This document shows, piece after piece, positions 43,839 to 52,508 of a stretch of 64,000 nt of DNA. The stretch comes from an archaeon. GTDB taxonomy: Archaea; Thermoproteota; Nitrososphaeria; Nitrososphaerales; Gagatemarchaeaceae. The first letter of the stretch is position 1, and the number at the start of each line of letters is the position of its first letter. The stretch lies in NCBI GenBank assembly GCA_021819105.1, contig JAKASK010000003.1, positions 1 to 64,000 of the forward strand, written 5' to 3'. A program made the position numbers and the translations under genes. The notes below the pieces were generated by a model. It ran no database searches and was not told the origin of the DNA. It saw nothing but the letters and a program-made list of their open reading frames with translations.

Positions 43839-43963
43839 CCGAGCGTTTCCTCTCCGAGGGAGCCGGGGTGCCGGCGGTCATCTGATGAAACTGACGTCGA
43901 CCCCCCGCGCTTTCACGCCCGGCCGAGGGGATTTAACACCCCGCGGCGGTGCCGGTGGCAGCG

Positions 43964-44908
43964 ATGTGGGACCTCCTGTACGCCGTCGACGCCTCATCCA
44001 GCATGGCAGACACCCACAGGTCCCCCAGGGGGACCAGCTTCGTCAAGATGGACCTGGTCAGGGAGACCATCGCCGGGCTCCTCGGCGGGGGCGAACTCCC
44101 CTTCGGGAGCAGGCTGGGGGTGATGACCTTCCAGGCGCCCACCCGCCTGGGGGGGATGTTCTTGAAGGGAGGGGAAGAGATGACCAGGATGGTGGTACCC
44201 CTGACGGACCTCGACGACCTGACGAAGGAAGGGATGAAGGAGAAGATGGATGCCATACGGGTGAGCGGGGCGACCCCTTCCGGATTAGCGATCGAGGAGG
44301 GACTCAGGCAGCTCTACGCTGGGAACGACGGGCCCGTCAGGCGGATAAAGAAGGTGGTGATGATAACCGACGAGAGGTCCAACGTGGGGCCCAGGCCGGA
44401 GAATGTGGTGGGGGACGAAGTGGCCCAGAAGGCGATAGTCGACGTGATCGCCATCGGGGGGAAGATCAACAGGGAGACCCTGGAGAAGGTCGCGGCCAGG
44501 ACGGGGGGGAAGTTCATGATAGTGGAGAGCGCAGAGGAGCTCCTGGCAGCCATGAAGCCGAGGATAGACGTGAGGGGGCTTGGGGTGGACGCCGGGCTGC
44601 TCGACGACGTGGGAAAGGCGGAGCAGGGACTGCTGGCGGGGAGGGCCCTCGGGGAGGGGTCGATGCAGTACAGGCAGGCGCTGGACAGGGCGAGGGAGGT
44701 GAGGGCCAGGGCCAACAAGCGGCTGATGGAGGTCCTGATGGTGAGGGCCCAGGCCGACGCGGACGTGAAGATGCTGGTGTCGCAGCTGCAGAAGGGGATG
44801 ACCATGGCCGAGTACGCCCGGAGGGTGTGGCCACGGGCGGCTGAGCTGGACCAGGCGGAGAAGGTCGAGAAGGAGCTCAGGGCTGCGATGGAGCGGCTGG
44901 CGGCCTAG
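43964..44908 (+). CDS. VWA-domain protein
   Basis: The protein has about 314 residues. The von Willebrand factor A domain (about 1-190) starts WDLLYAVDASSSMAD, with the MIDAS metal motif D-x-S-x-S, then SGATPSGLAIEEGL (the MIDAS Thr) and KKVVMITDERSNV. The C-terminal half is a long charged helical region (EQGLLAGRALGEGSMQYRQAL; AEYARRVWPRAAELDQAEKV), probably coiled coil. Such proteins act in metal-dependent protein complexes. ATG 43964 is chosen because TATA-like ATTTAAC at 43931-43937 predicts a start at about 43960. It overlaps the convergent surface-protein gene by 4 bases. Confidence 0.82.
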   Translation: MWDLLYAVDASSSMADTHRSPRGTSFVKMDLVRETIAGLLGGGELPFGSRLGVMTFQAPTRLGGMFLKGGEEMTRMVVPLTDLDDLTKEGMKEKMDAIRVSGATPSGLAIEEGLRQLYAGNDGPVRRIKKVVMITDERSNVGPRPENVVGDEVAQKAIVDVIAIGGKINRETLEKVAARTGGKFMIVESAEELLAAMKPRIDVRGLGVDAGLLDDVGKAEQGLLAGRALGEGSMQYRQALDRAREVRARANKRLMEVLMVRAQADADVKMLVSQLQKGMTMAEYARRVWPRAAELDQAEKVEKELRAAMERLAA

Positions 44909-47650: not shown

Positions 47651-48327
47651 GCGGAGGGGTCGCCAGGCTGGACTCGGCCACCCTGGTCTACGGGGCGGGG
47701 GAAAGGAGGGTCACGGCGGTGTCCGGGGCGACCGTCGAAGTGGCCGGGGGGAAGGTCGTCGGGATCGTCGGACCGTCGGGGTCGGGGAAGACCACGCTGA
47801 TGAGCATGCTCGGGACCCTGCTGCTCCCCACGTCGGGTGCTGCTTACTTCGACGGAAGGGACGTGTCCACCCTCTCGGTGGCCCAGAGGAGAGCGCTGAG
47901 GCTCGGGAGGGTCGGGTTCGTGTTCCAGCAGCTGAGGCTCATGCAGAAGCTGTCGGCCCTGGAGAACGTGCGGCTCCCGCTGGTCCTGGCCGGGAGGGAG
48001 GACGGGGAACGGCTCCGGAGGGCCTCTGAGCTGGTGAAGGCTGTGGGGCTCGAGGGGAAGGAGGGACGAAGGCCAGGGGAGCTCAGCGTCGGGGAGCAGC
48101 AGAGGGTGGCGGTCGCCAGGGCGCTTGTGAACAGCCCGGCGCTTGTGCTCGCCGACGAGCCGACGAGCCAGCTCGACTCGGCCTCGGGGCAGAGCGTCCT
48201 GGAGCTGCTCGAGGGGCTCTGCGCCGAGATAGGTGCCGCCGTCGTGATCTCGACCCACGACCAGAAGATGAGGGAGCGCCTCGGGGAGGTGTACGAGATG
48301 CGCGACGGGGTACTTTCGCAGGGATGA
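47647..48327 (+). CDS. ABC transporter ATP-binding protein, LolD/MacB type
   Basis: The protein has 226 residues. Walker A GPSGSGKTT is at 42-50, the Q-loop FVFQQLRLMQKLSALENVRLP, the signature LSVGEQQRVAVARAL, Walker B LVLADEPTSQLD and the H-loop VVISTHD. The compact length and ENVRLP motif are typical of the LolD/MacB/FtsE group. It starts at ATG 47647, inside the permease stop, and overlaps the next gene by four bases, so the three genes make one machine. Confidence 0.92.
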   Translation: MSGGVARLDSATLVYGAGERRVTAVSGATVEVAGGKVVGIVGPSGSGKTTLMSMLGTLLLPTSGAAYFDGRDVSTLSVAQRRALRLGRVGFVFQQLRLMQKLSALENVRLPLVLAGREDGERLRRASELVKAVGLEGKEGRRPGELSVGEQQRVAVARALVNSPALVLADEPTSQLDSASGQSVLELLEGLCAEIGAAVVISTHDQKMRERLGEVYEMRDGVLSQG

Positions 48328-49322
48328 AGCCGAAGTGGCTGGGGGCCGCATGCGCGGTCCTCCTGGTCGCAGGTGTGGTCTCCATGGCGGTCCCGGCGGC
48401 GTCGCTGGCTTCGGGGCTCAGGATGTCCACCGGCAGGGCGACGAACATCGCGGGCTACGCGGTGGCGGTCCCCGTCCTGATATCCAACCACGGGTTCCTG
48501 GGGATCGGAGACATCAGGCTGCGCATGGTGGTCCTGGAAGGGGGGACGGTGGTCTTTTCGAGGGACGTCGGCCCCCTCGCCATAGCCCCAGGCGGGAGCG
48601 TGAGCTTCGAGGCCGTGCTCCTCAATGGTACCGCCAAGCAGCCGGTAGGTAACCTGAGCTGGGAGGTGACCGGGAGCGCGGTCGTCGGCGGGTTCCTGCC
48701 GGTGGGGATGACTGTGACCGAGGGGAGGGCCCCGGCGACAGCTGGCCCTGCGGTCTACGGCGACGCCGCCCTGCAGGCCGGGGCGGCAGCCCTGGCAGCG
48801 GCGGCTGCTTCCGCCGGAGACGAGGAGCCAGCGGTGAAGGGAGGCCGGGGGCCGCTGAGAGGCAGGGCCAGGGCGGCCGTGGGTGTGGGGGCGGGGGCGC
48901 TGGTGCTGCTCGTCCTCGTCGCCGGGCCGAGGCTCGCGGGGCCCTGGGTTGGAGGCGTCGCTTCGCAGGCTGCCGGCCAGGGGACCACCCTCGGCCTGAG
49001 CTCGAGCCTCGCCGACTTCGCGCTCGGGGCCCCCTACGCGGCCATGGTCGCCGTCGTGGCCTGCATAGAGGGGGTGCTGAAGGGAGCGGGCTTGGGCCCG
49101 GCGGCTGGGGGCGCCCTCAAAGCCGCGGAGGGAGCGGTCCTCGCCCTGCTGTTCTACCTGCTCTTGGGGGGCGGGGTCCCCACGGTCGACGCGACCGTCG
49201 CGGGGTTCGCGGCGGACTTCGCCGTCGGGCTCACCCTGACCCTGGCGCTCTTCGAGGCGGCCGCGGTGGTGCGCGCGGTCGAGGGGACCCTCGAGGTGCT
49301 GGGGTCGAGACGGGGAGCCTGA
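48324..49322 (+). CDS. Membrane protein, third component of the MacB-type operon
   Basis: The protein has 332 residues. A signal-anchor helix (LGAACAVLLVAGVVSMAVPAASL) is followed by an extracytoplasmic Ig- or fibronectin-like domain (about 30-135: YAVAVPVLISNHGFLGIGDIRL), an Ala-rich acidic linker and three further hydrophobic segments (VGVGAGALVLLVLVAGPRL; PYAAMVAVVACIEGVL; AVLALLFYLLLGG). I know no family. By overlap with the ATPase gene it is likely a periplasmic-side partner, analogous in position to MacA-type adaptors. Confidence 0.6.
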   Translation: MKPKWLGAACAVLLVAGVVSMAVPAASLASGLRMSTGRATNIAGYAVAVPVLISNHGFLGIGDIRLRMVVLEGGTVVFSRDVGPLAIAPGGSVSFEAVLLNGTAKQPVGNLSWEVTGSAVVGGFLPVGMTVTEGRAPATAGPAVYGDAALQAGAAALAAAAASAGDEEPAVKGGRGPLRGRARAAVGVGAGALVLLVLVAGPRLAGPWVGGVASQAAGQGTTLGLSSSLADFALGAPYAAMVAVVACIEGVLKGAGLGPAAGGALKAAEGAVLALLFYLLLGGGVPTVDATVAGFAADFAVGLTLTLALFEAAAVVRAVEGTLEVLGSRRGA

Positions 49323-49331
49323 CGAAAATTG

Positions 49332-49338
49332 CTTATAG
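49332..49338 (+). promoter_or_regulatory. TATA-like box for the actin-like gene
   Basis: CTTATAG centred at about 49335 predicts a start at about 49361, 3 nt before TTG 49364. It separates this two-gene unit from the ABC operon upstream. Confidence 0.55.
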
Positions 49339-49363
49339 ACCGAGGGAGCAGTGGCAGTGAGAG

Positions 49364-50638
49364 TTGCCCGCTCCAAAGGAGCTCTCCGTCTTCGGCGAGG
49401 ACTACGGTACTTCGGAGCTGAAGTTCGGCCCGGCGACCCTGGGCAACGTCCCGGACGTAATCGAGAACCGGGGCTACTTCCCCGACACCAGGTCGTCGAT
49501 GGTGAGGATGACAGGCGGGGCGGACAAGAAGCTGCTGGTGGTCGGCCCCGACGTGTCCAACTTCGTCGAGGCGAAGCGCGACATAGCCGAGAGGATGGTC
49601 TATCCGATGCGGAGCGGGGTCATCGACAGGGACGACGACAGGTCCTGGTCGGTGGTGAAGGAGCTGACGAGGTACGCCCTCCTCAGGCACGTGCCTGAGA
49701 ACCCTGAGTTCGACGGCGTGAAGGCAGTGGCAGCGCTTTCGGCCGCCGCCCCGAGGTACATGTACGACAGGCTCTTCGAAATCCACAGGGAGATCAACCA
49801 GGAGGAGGGGAGGAAGCTGGTCAAGGCGTTGTCCATCATCCCTCAGCCCTTCGCCGTCGCCATATCGCAGAAGGTCCTCGCCTGCACTGTGCTCGAGGCA
49901 GGCCATGGCAACGCGCAGATCGCACCCGTGAGCAGCGGCATGATCTTCAACGCGCTCATCACCCTGAACCGCGGCGGGGGGGACTGCGACCTCGTCGCCG
50001 CCGAGATACTGCGCGACGCCGGCTACGGGGACCTGGCTCGTGAGCCGAAGTTGGTCAAGCTGTTCAAGGAGTCGCTGGGGCTCGTCCCGAAGAGCCTGAA
50101 GCAGGTGATGGCGGACAAGAACAACCCGAAGTATGGGGCGGTGTTCAGGGTCCCCAACACCCGGATATCCATCGACCTGGACAAGAGCAGCTGGCAGCGG
50201 TTCCTGATAGGGGAGTACTTCTTCGACCCGTCCAACGAATACTACTCGTCCTACTACAGGCGCGGGTTCCCCAAGCCGGCCGACTCCTACTCGGAGGGGA
50301 AGGTGGTCGCAGGGACCACCGACCTGGCCGAAGTGATCATCCAGTCGGTCCAGAAGTGCAGCTTCGAGATCCAGCCGGCGCTCTACAGGTCGATTTTCCT
50401 GTCGGGGGGCGGCTTCTCCTGGAAGGTCCCCCAGGGGATGGAGAGCTACGCCGTCGACTCTTCTACGAAGCTGAAGGCGATGCTGGAGGAGAAGGGGATC
50501 CAGGGGGCGAACGTCACCCTCACCAAGCACCCGGTCTACAACGTCTGGCAAGGGTGCGTCGCCTACGGGCTCTACATCCCGGACGACTTCACCTGGGACT
50601 GGGACGAGCGAGAAGGCTGGCAGTACCTCGACCGGTAG
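49364..50638 (+). CDS. Actin-like ATPase (crenactin-related)
   Basis: The protein has 424 residues with the three actin-fold nucleotide motifs: phosphate 1 GEDYGTSELKFGP (11-23), phosphate 2 LEAGHGNAQIAP (177-188, with Glu where actins have Asp) and the adenosine loop IFLSGGGFSWKVP (344-356). This combination is found in actin/crenactin/MreB-family filaments, not in sugar kinases or Hsp70. It would form dynamic or scaffold filaments in the cytoplasm. TTG leaderless start. The next gene, 7 nt away, encodes a membrane protein with a coiled-coil tail and is the likely partner. No arcadin genes are recognisable nearby, and a ParM- or segregation-like role cannot be excluded. Confidence 0.85.
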   Translation: MPAPKELSVFGEDYGTSELKFGPATLGNVPDVIENRGYFPDTRSSMVRMTGGADKKLLVVGPDVSNFVEAKRDIAERMVYPMRSGVIDRDDDRSWSVVKELTRYALLRHVPENPEFDGVKAVAALSAAAPRYMYDRLFEIHREINQEEGRKLVKALSIIPQPFAVAISQKVLACTVLEAGHGNAQIAPVSSGMIFNALITLNRGGGDCDLVAAEILRDAGYGDLAREPKLVKLFKESLGLVPKSLKQVMADKNNPKYGAVFRVPNTRISIDLDKSSWQRFLIGEYFFDPSNEYYSSYYRRGFPKPADSYSEGKVVAGTTDLAEVIIQSVQKCSFEIQPALYRSIFLSGGGFSWKVPQGMESYAVDSSTKLKAMLEEKGIQGANVTLTKHPVYNVWQGCVAYGLYIPDDFTWDWDEREGWQYLDR

Positions 50639-50645
50639 CCTCGCC

Positions 50646-51542
50646 ATGACTTTCGACGAGATCGAAAGGCGGAGGGCCGCCCTGCTCGCGCACCCCAAGG
50701 TGAGGAAGAGCGGCGGCCGGGTCCTCTTCGCAATCTTTCTGATCGTCAACGCCGCCCTGATCTACCTGGTCGCCGCCCCCTACGCGGGGCTCGTCGCCAA
50801 CGACTTCGCGCTGACGGCGGGGGTCGGCGCCCTCGGTGGGCTCTTCCTGCTCGCGCTCAGGTACAGAAGCTACAGGAAGGCGCGCGGCGCCTCGGCGTCC
50901 CTCTCCCTGGCCTTCCTCGACGTGCTCGCCTGGGTGGGCGTCGTCGGCGTCCTGGTCTGGAGCTTCGTCTTCCCTGCCCTGAGGGCGTTCCCTGCGGGAA
51001 CCCTGCTGTACCTGTTCTACCTCCCCCAGTTCCCCATAGGGGTCTACTCCCTCACCTTCGTCTGGGCGATGCTGATAGTCCTCAGGGTGGTCCTGCAGCC
51101 CTTCACCAAGCCCCCGGCCGAGAAGGTGTACGCCGACATCGAGGCGTCGCTGCGCAAGCTGACCGAGACGGTGAACCAGGTCGGCCAGAGGCCGAAGGGG
51201 CCCGACCAGAAGCCGGACCCGGCCCTCGCCGACAAGGTCAGTTCGATAATGTCGGAGATCACGGCGGTGAGGAGGGAGCTCTCGACCATCAAGACGGCGG
51301 CGCCCCCCGCCTACGCCGCCGCCCCCGAAGCATCGAGCGTGAGGGTGATGGCGCCACAGGCGAGGCAAGCGCCGGGTCCCAGGCAGGAGGTCGCGGTGAT
51401 CAGGGCCGACACAGGGCCGAGGCCGCGGAGGGACACCGGGGTCGCAGTCCCCGAGTCCGCTGTAGACAACCCGTGGCTGGGGGTCCTGGGCAAGAGGGGG
51501 ACCAAGCGCCAGCAGGGGTCCGCCAAGGCAGAGAACGAGTAA
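50646..51542 (+). CDS. Membrane protein with coiled-coil and Pro/Arg-rich tail, actin-gene partner
   Basis: The protein has 298 residues. After a short cytoplasmic N-terminus (TFDEIERRRAALLAHPKVRKSG) there are about four membrane helices (LFAIFLIVNAALIYLVAAPY; ALTAGVGALGGLFLLAL; LAFLDVLAWVGVVGVLVWSFV; VYSLTFVWAMLIVLRVVL). Residues ~165-225 form a heptad-rich cytoplasmic segment (DIEASLRKLTETVNQVGQ; DKVSSIMSEITAVRRELSTI), and an unstructured Arg/Pro-rich tail ends in NPWLGVLGKRGTKR. I know no family. It is 7 nt downstream of the actin-like gene, so a role anchoring or nucleating filaments at the membrane is the natural hypothesis. Confidence 0.7.
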   Translation: MTFDEIERRRAALLAHPKVRKSGGRVLFAIFLIVNAALIYLVAAPYAGLVANDFALTAGVGALGGLFLLALRYRSYRKARGASASLSLAFLDVLAWVGVVGVLVWSFVFPALRAFPAGTLLYLFYLPQFPIGVYSLTFVWAMLIVLRVVLQPFTKPPAEKVYADIEASLRKLTETVNQVGQRPKGPDQKPDPALADKVSSIMSEITAVRRELSTIKTAAPPAYAAAPEASSVRVMAPQARQAPGPRQEVAVIRADTGPRPRRDTGVAVPESAVDNPWLGVLGKRGTKRQQGSAKAENE

Positions 51543-51641: not shown

Positions 51642-52508
51642 ATGGGGAACCTGACCCCCTGGGTCAAGCTTGTCCGCTTCGAGGAGTACGGCCCCCTCTT
51701 CGTCTTCTGCGGCCTGGTCGGGGCGGTCTACGCCGGGGTCGGGTCGGCCGCCGGCCTAGCGGGGCTGACGGCCTTCATCGCGTGCTTCTCGGCCTCGGCC
51801 TTCGTGCTGAACGACATCGCCGACAGGCACGAAGACGCGTCTGCCCCTGCGAGCAGGAACCCGCTGGCGACGGGGGAACTGGGCCTCGGCTCCGGGACCG
51901 CCCTCTTCGCCCTCCTTGCCGCGGGGTCCGTGGGGTCGCTTTACTTTGTGCCAGCCCCGGCGCGCTACGCGGCGCCGCTCGTCTACGGGCTCTACTGGGG
52001 CTACAGCTGGGGGCCGGGGTTCAAGTCGAGGCCCGGCCTCGACGTGGTCGTGCACGGCTCCGTCCCTGCGCTCTTCGTCCTCATGGGGTACGCGCTCTAT
52101 GCCCCACTGTCGGCGGGGGCGGCGGTGGTCTCGGGGGCCGTGTTCTGCTTCGCAGCGATGTCCGGAGTCCTTCAGGGGGTGAGGGACCTCGAGAAGGACT
52201 CGGCGACGCGGCGGTCGACCCCCCTCGCCCTGGGCTCGGGTCGCTCCGTGGACCTGGCTGTCGGGTTGATGGGGTCGGGGGCGCTGCTCTATGGATGCGC
52301 GGTCCTGACAGGGTACCTGCCTCCGATCATGGCCGCCCTGGTCCCGTTCTCGTCCGCCCTCATCCTCCCGCTCCTCCGGCTGAGGTCAGGGAGGACAGGG
52401 CCCGAGGAGACGATCAGGGTCGTCAGGTCCCGGGGGATGGCCCTCGCCGCCGGGGCGCTCTGCCTCTACCTGCTGTGGGCGGCCAACCTGGTCCCCCTGG
52501 TTTTGTAA
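51642..52508 (+). CDS. UbiA family prenyltransferase
   Basis: This is a multi-pass membrane enzyme of 288 residues that attaches a prenyl chain to an acceptor. The first Asp-rich motif is NDIADRHED (about 58-66) and the second is VRDLEKDSATR (about 181-191). An early FEEYGPLFVFCGL and the PASRNPLATGEL segment are family features. It could be geranylgeranylglyceryl-phosphate- or menaquinone-pathway related, or act on a heme precursor; subfamily not resolved. ATG 51642 follows the TATA-like GCTTAAGT at 51609-51616 and looks leaderless. Confidence 0.85.
   Translation: MGNLTPWVKLVRFEEYGPLFVFCGLVGAVYAGVGSAAGLAGLTAFIACFSASAFVLNDIADRHEDASAPASRNPLATGELGLGSGTALFALLAAGSVGSLYFVPAPARYAAPLVYGLYWGYSWGPGFKSRPGLDVVVHGSVPALFVLMGYALYAPLSAGAAVVSGAVFCFAAMSGVLQGVRDLEKDSATRRSTPLALGSGRSVDLAVGLMGSGALLYGCAVLTGYLPPIMAALVPFSSALILPLLRLRSGRTGPEETIRVVRSRGMALAAGALCLYLLWAANLVPLVL

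Follow-up and report, generated by a model that had tools for sequence, protein, structure and literature searches.

An archaeal crenactin gene paired with a gene for a predicted four-helix membrane protein carrying an arcadin-2-type tail

Introduction

Among the closest described relatives of the system reported here is the arcadin cluster, which consists of crenactin – an archaeal actin-like ATPase – and arcadin-1 to -4. For Pyrobaculum, the C-terminal 17 residues of arcadin-2 are reported to bind the hydrophobic groove of crenactin and to depolymerise its filaments (PMC5173319). Binding needs a tryptophan together with hydrophobic neighbours, competes with the D-loop, and has a Kd of ~31 nM for full-length arcadin-2 (PMC5173319), with both tail binding and filament depolymerisation having been demonstrated for Pyrobaculum only. 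A similar contact is described for ParM/ParR plasmid segregation, in which the C-terminal helix of the partner fills the hydrophobic groove of the actin-like filament protein (PMC5173319).

One survey reports crenactin in Methanomethylicia but found no arcadin-related protein there (PMC9723716). Here, we analyse a 64,000-nucleotide stretch of archaeal DNA (contig JAKASK010000003.1 of assembly GCA_021819105.1, positions 1 to 64,000 of the forward strand; referred to as the window), in which a crenactin gene is followed by a gene for a predicted membrane protein, and compare it with crenactin loci in other archaea.

Results

The crenactin gene

The crenactin gene of the window (49364..50638, + strand) has a TTG start and encodes 424 residues. 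A sequence-only reading of this DNA had described it as a crenactin-type ATPase with all three nucleotide-binding motifs, and this is confirmed. NCBIfam NF053560 matches over its full length (E 1.3e-149, 498.7 bits, which is below the 630-bit equivalog cut-off, as is the score of most crenactins beyond Thermoproteales), and PDB 4cj7 (P. calidifontis crenactin) matches residues 9-421 (E 2e-94), with the catalytic glutamine conserved (Q161, at the position of Q164 in P. calidifontis). The phosphate-1 motif (D13-Y-G-T-S, 49400..49414, +; D13, G15, T16 and S17 are invariant in the crenactin alignment), the phosphate-2 motif (E178-A-G-H-G-N, 49895..49912, +) and the adenosine motif (S347-G-G-G, 50402..50413, +) are all present. 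A predicted TATA-like box (CTTATAGA, 49332..49339, +) lies ~27 nt upstream of the TTG codon; similar boxes at related loci lie at similar, not identical, distances, so that a leaderless reading of the promoter is plausible.

The phosphate-2 nucleotide-binding loop is also the site of an intein, between N183 and T184, in the crenactins of three relatives, namely G022 (L064 9891-12758, –), G023 (L065 9208-12108, +) and G024 (L066 3410-4795, +, partial). The G022 intein matches Pfam Intein_splicing (3e-17) as well as LAGLIDADG, and none of the papers covered by one literature search describes a crenactin intein.

The downstream membrane protein

The second gene (50646..51542, +; 298 aa) begins 7 nt after crenactin, and both ORFs are where the sequence-only reading had placed them. 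That reading had also proposed a multi-pass membrane protein with a cytoplasmic segment, and the AF2 model – of modest overall confidence, with a mean pLDDT of 64 – agrees, predicting four TM helices (residues 22-47, 54-77, 82-112 and 133-154; 50709..51107, +; pLDDT mostly 76-90, with lower stretches) and two cytoplasmic helices (residues 159-181 and 192-217; 51120..51296, +; pLDDT 50-64). These are followed by an Ala/Pro/Arg-rich linker predicted to be disordered (residues 217-269; 51294..51452, +; pLDDT 31-42) and a terminal helix at 278-292. Loop charges are positive at the N-terminus, in loop 2-3 and after TM4, and this positive-inside pattern fits a predicted N-in/C-in topology.

Searches of Pfam, NCBIfam, PDB sequences and PDB folds gave no match to the membrane protein, bearing out the earlier remark that it matches no known family. 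Identity within the genus is 59-69%. Nine positions are invariant among 12 membrane proteins – Y76, D92, P110, R147, N275, P276, W277, L281 and R284 – and the last five of these fall within the C-terminal tail, where a 17-residue segment referred to as the NPW box (VPESAVDNPWLGVLGKR, residues 268-284; 51447..51497, +) forms a putative crenactin-binding tail of the arcadin-2 type.

Relationship to arcadin-2

Profile-profile alignment of the membrane family with soluble arcadin-2 (hhalign) gives a probability of 95 and an E-value of 2.8e-8 over exactly 23 tail columns, and no homology to arcadin-2 in the membrane family outside this 23-residue tail. By this comparison the peptide with which arcadin-2 binds crenactin also forms the end of the membrane protein, which makes the earlier statement that no arcadin-like gene is recognisable at the locus wrong. 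The tail consensus of arcadin-2 is (D/N)N(P/E)WxxILxxR and the terminal helix of the membrane protein reads NPWxxVLxxR. The two proteins share further features: both genes adjoin crenactin, and both products are ordered as a body, a coiled segment, a disordered linker and a C-terminal helix with the tryptophan, the predicted disorder of residues 217-269 corresponding to the non-conserved and presumably unstructured linker of arcadin-2. They differ in that arcadin-2 is soluble and has a conserved N-terminal domain, whereas the membrane protein has four TM helices in its place. Judging by its tail, the membrane protein would work like arcadin-2, yet we do not call it an arcadin-2, because the soluble body is absent.

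When crenactin and the membrane protein of a Methanomethylicus genome (L082) were modelled by AF2 as one chain by stop-codon read-through, crenactin folded well and the tail was disordered and undocked (pLDDT ~35), the prediction being effectively single-sequence there. No match to arcadin-4 (SMC-like) was obtained in six carriers of the window's crenactin clade (G000, G016, G009, G033, G044 and G155) with one single-sequence query, which a diverged copy could escape, and no arcadin-1 or arcadin-3 was noticed in the immediate neighbourhood of the crenactin pair.

Distribution of the tail motif

Crenactin neighbourhoods were collected from ~30 families, and in nearly all of these loci a neighbour of crenactin ends in L-P-(S/D/E)-x3-(D/N)-N-P-W-x2-(I/V)-L-(S/A)-x-R. 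This extended motif occurs in 34 of 2655 ORFs, each of them a crenactin-linked protein or an orthologue of one, and nowhere in 20 shuffled sets. Soluble arcadin-2 proteins, 200-280 aa long, account for most of the carriers; in the relatives of the window the carrier is the 4-TM protein.

A six-frame search of 398 Thermoproteota genomes with the pattern P-x4-(D/N)-N-P-W-x2-(V/I/M)-L-x2-R found it in 64 of the 128 genomes with crenactin – a lower bound, since the pattern misses variants such as NEW – and in one of the 270 without (G381, 84% complete; Fisher p 1.4e-36). The reversed pattern has zero occurrences in the same 398 genomes. Several genomes contain multiple copies, from two to five. 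Among 31 motif sites that were inspected, chosen since most lie away from crenactin, 29 have the motif in frame and 0-9 residues from the C-terminus. In a six-frame translation of the window genome (G000; 914 kb, 65% complete), NPWxx(V/I/M)L is matched by the tail of the membrane protein and nowhere else, and the same is true of G016.

Carriers of the tail include helix-turn-helix proteins (HTH_23, Sigma70_r4), C2H2 zinc fingers, and MatP-like ribbon-helix-helix and MazE/AbrB-like proteins, the last two assignments resting on weak E-values. The tail thus behaves as a portable crenactin-associated motif. We lean towards the view that Thermoproteota use the NPW box as a movable actin-binding element at the C-terminus, borne on unrelated scaffolds (soluble arcadin-2, a KaiC-like ATPase, several kinds of DNA-binding protein and, in the window clade, the 4-TM protein), and that the same groove contact would connect crenactin filaments with DNA in certain archaea and with the membrane in others.

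DNA-binding and other small proteins with an NPW box in crenactin genomes lie at loci L118-L124, L126-L130, L133-L140, L145 and L146. By inspection, a helix-turn-helix protein with an NPW tail stands beside ECF-type ABC transporter genes in five families (L120, L123, L124, L136 and L146), and this common context suggests that the helix-turn-helix carrier is a conserved chromosomal gene. In G044 and Maxine3 the NPW box is found on a KaiC-like ATPase encoded upstream of crenactin (L069 11206-13086, +, and L107 5834-7687, +, respectively), and a VWA gene follows crenactin.

Conservation of the gene pair

The crenactin and membrane genes are adjacent in 13 of the 14 genomes holding both (G008 and G009 are nearly identical at the locus, so are not independent), and the pair is thus conserved in relatives, a point on which the sequence-only reading had asked for a check. 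Within the family (46 genomes) crenactin is present in 11, the membrane protein in nine and both in eight (Fisher p 5e-6); a tenth match to the membrane protein, in G457 (63 residues, E 5e-4), was set aside. The two genes also lie side by side beyond the family (G058, L104, L106, L117 and two Methanomethylicus genomes), and the pair is found across Nitrososphaerales and Methanomethylicus. In the tree of 39 crenactins – which holds crenactins only, with no other actin families as outgroup – the ten membrane-type crenactins, two with a KaiC-like tail carrier and one without a carrier seen form one distinct clade with 100/100 support, separate from the soluble-arcadin-2 crenactins; the window crenactin belongs to this clade.

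Three genomes of the family have crenactin alone. In G019 and G024 a contig end falls inside crenactin, and in G020 (L063 2002-2412, +) crenactin stops after ~125 residues, no membrane gene follows and the VWA gene is intact, so that its module is an apparent decaying copy. Conversely, in G013 the membrane gene is present and crenactin was not detected, but a contig end cuts the VWA gene of this genome, so that crenactin may lie in a gap. The one split case is G016, rated 100% complete, which has both genes at separate places, with UbiA still next to the membrane gene. In the window this UbiA-family prenyltransferase gene (51642-52508) lies downstream of the membrane gene, which it follows here and in five of the genus neighbourhoods examined, and it stays with the membrane gene where crenactin is elsewhere (G016 and G013).

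The gene upstream of crenactin in the window (48324-49322; 332 aa) was considered as a further member of the system and excluded, because it is upstream of crenactin elsewhere only in G016 (49% identity). Genome G323 carries two copies of crenactin, of which one has a membrane-type partner and the other a soluble-type NPW tail (L131 = G323:C27; G323:C32); this may reflect either two systems in a single cell or a mixed bin.

A VWA-domain protein as probable third member

The window also encodes a VWA-domain protein (43949..44908, +; Pfam VWA 4.8e-11) with a complete MIDAS (D14-x-S16-x-S18, T109, D141); over 12 sequences D14, S16, S18 and D141 are invariant and T109 is nearly so. A close orthologue (63-79% identity) is present in 10 of 10 crenactin-bearing members of the genus, and elsewhere in the genus only in G013 and G004, both cut at contig ends. 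Other genes intervene between the VWA gene and crenactin in the window. The two genes directly adjoin in G019, L104, L106 and the Methanomethylicus genomes; there the VWA gene comes first, crenactin second and the membrane protein third. Since a VWA-domain gene is the usual neighbour of crenactin in the membrane-type clade, the ancestral module was probably VWA, crenactin and membrane protein, and the VWA protein is probably a third member. The sequence-only reading had pictured a two-gene membrane-anchored system unlike described clusters; the difference from published arcadin clusters stands and the count of two genes is not supported, as the VWA gene is a conserved and probable further member.

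A profile search did not find the window-type VWA protein beside soluble-arcadin-2 crenactins. Several of those loci have a conserved coiled protein of ~75 aa directly upstream of crenactin (L084 3622-3852, L091 8352-8567, L093 3776-3997 and L096 8498-8725), and three of these four match the VWA family profile weakly (E 3e-4 to 3e-3), a similarity that may reflect a generic coiled coil.

Discussion

We consider it likely that the two genes encode a variant of the crenactin/arcadin-2 system that is linked to the membrane, in which the tail docks in the groove of crenactin. The 4-TM protein would sit N-in/C-in in the cell membrane, and its cytoplasmic helices and flexible linker of ~50 residues would present a C-terminal amphipathic helix (NPWxxVLxxR). 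This helix could insert into the hydrophobic groove that lies between subdomains IA and IIA of crenactin, where arcadin-2 binds and where, in filaments, the adjacent subunit places its D-loop. In this way the protein would keep crenactin monomers, or the exposed end of a filament, at the membrane, with the VWA protein as a probable third partner. The AF2 read-through chain lends this reading no support, and the separation of the two genes in G016, the membrane gene without detected crenactin in G013 and the lack of homology to arcadin-2 beyond the tail count against it. We infer that the membrane protein binds crenactin, is located in the cell membrane and has a role with filaments there, and the 'membrane-anchored filament' of the sequence-only reading would be an interpretation of the same kind. 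Docking of the tail might serve to tether, cap, nucleate, depolymerise or sequester crenactin; by analogy, the arcadin-2 precedent favours bulk filament disassembly and the ParR precedent, at the same groove, favours end-binding.

The strongest alternative, which has a realistic chance of being correct although we do not favour it, makes the membrane protein a nucleator or processive end-binder bound to the membrane. Its tails, in clusters, would grip the grooves exposed at one end of the filament during subunit addition and promote filaments at the membrane instead of disassembling them, like ParR on ParM or WH2/formin on actin. For ParM, binding of ParR to the same groove is reported (PMC5173319), the tails could be brought together by the cytoplasmic helices, and DNA-binding proteins bear the same tail in a ParR-like architecture; however, the sole tail that has been tested, that of arcadin-2, depolymerises bulk filaments. 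Rather unlikely is a monomer buffer that works like arcadin-2 or thymosin beta-4 and sequesters crenactin close to the membrane, with the membrane location being incidental. It would agree with the reported ability of the arcadin-2 tail alone to sequester monomers at nanomolar affinity (PMC5173319), and with the retention of N275, P276, W277, L281 and R284, but it leaves unexplained why four conserved TM helices replace the soluble body across the whole clade.

It is very improbable that the two genes are linked only as an operon, with the tail likeness being convergence or chance and the membrane protein acting otherwise, for example with the UbiA prenyltransferase: the membrane gene does stay with UbiA rather than crenactin in G016 and G013, and UbiA follows it in the window and in five of the genus neighbourhoods examined, but the 23-column match (E 2.8e-8), the zero matches in shuffled sets and the phylum-wide association of motif and crenactin argue against it. 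Least credible of all is an ordinary crenactin beside an unrelated membrane gene with no conserved association, which fits the patchy occurrence of crenactin in the family (11 of 46 genomes) but not the membrane gene in eight of those 11 (Fisher p 5e-6), the contig ends or truncation that affect the other three crenactins, or the same pairing in other families.

Returning to the membrane-linked variant, the comparisons suggest that actin in the window lineage is held or controlled at the cell membrane. A membrane protein with a known crenactin-binding peptide is a concrete candidate for a link between crenactin and the membrane outside Thermoproteales. For the Methanomethylicia, the published survey (PMC9723716) is corrected, in that two Methanomethylicus genomes carry the arcadin-2 tail, on the membrane protein. 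Since the tail motif is short and C-terminal, candidate actin partners can be listed in any crenactin genome. A role of crenactin as a substitute for ESCRT-III division was considered and rejected; ESCRT-III-like genes are found throughout the genus whether or not crenactin is present, and it is therefore unlikely that crenactin has taken the place of the division machinery here.

Comparison with known systems

The window locus resembles the arcadin cluster in that crenactin has an adjacent tail-bearing partner, and differs in that the neighbours of crenactin in the window clade are a VWA gene and the membrane protein. A search of the openly available crenactin/arcadin-2 literature yielded no account of an arcadin tail borne on a membrane protein.

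ParR is a DNA-binding protein whereas the partner in the window is a predicted membrane protein, and it is the DNA-binding proteins ending in an NPW box that have a ParR-like layout. The eukaryotic groove binders WH2, thymosin beta-4 and cofilin likewise place a short helix in a hydrophobic groove, a portable binding mode that compares by analogy only, without sequence homology. If our view of it is correct, the portable NPW box would be an archaeal counterpart of ParM/ParR and of the WH2 proteins.
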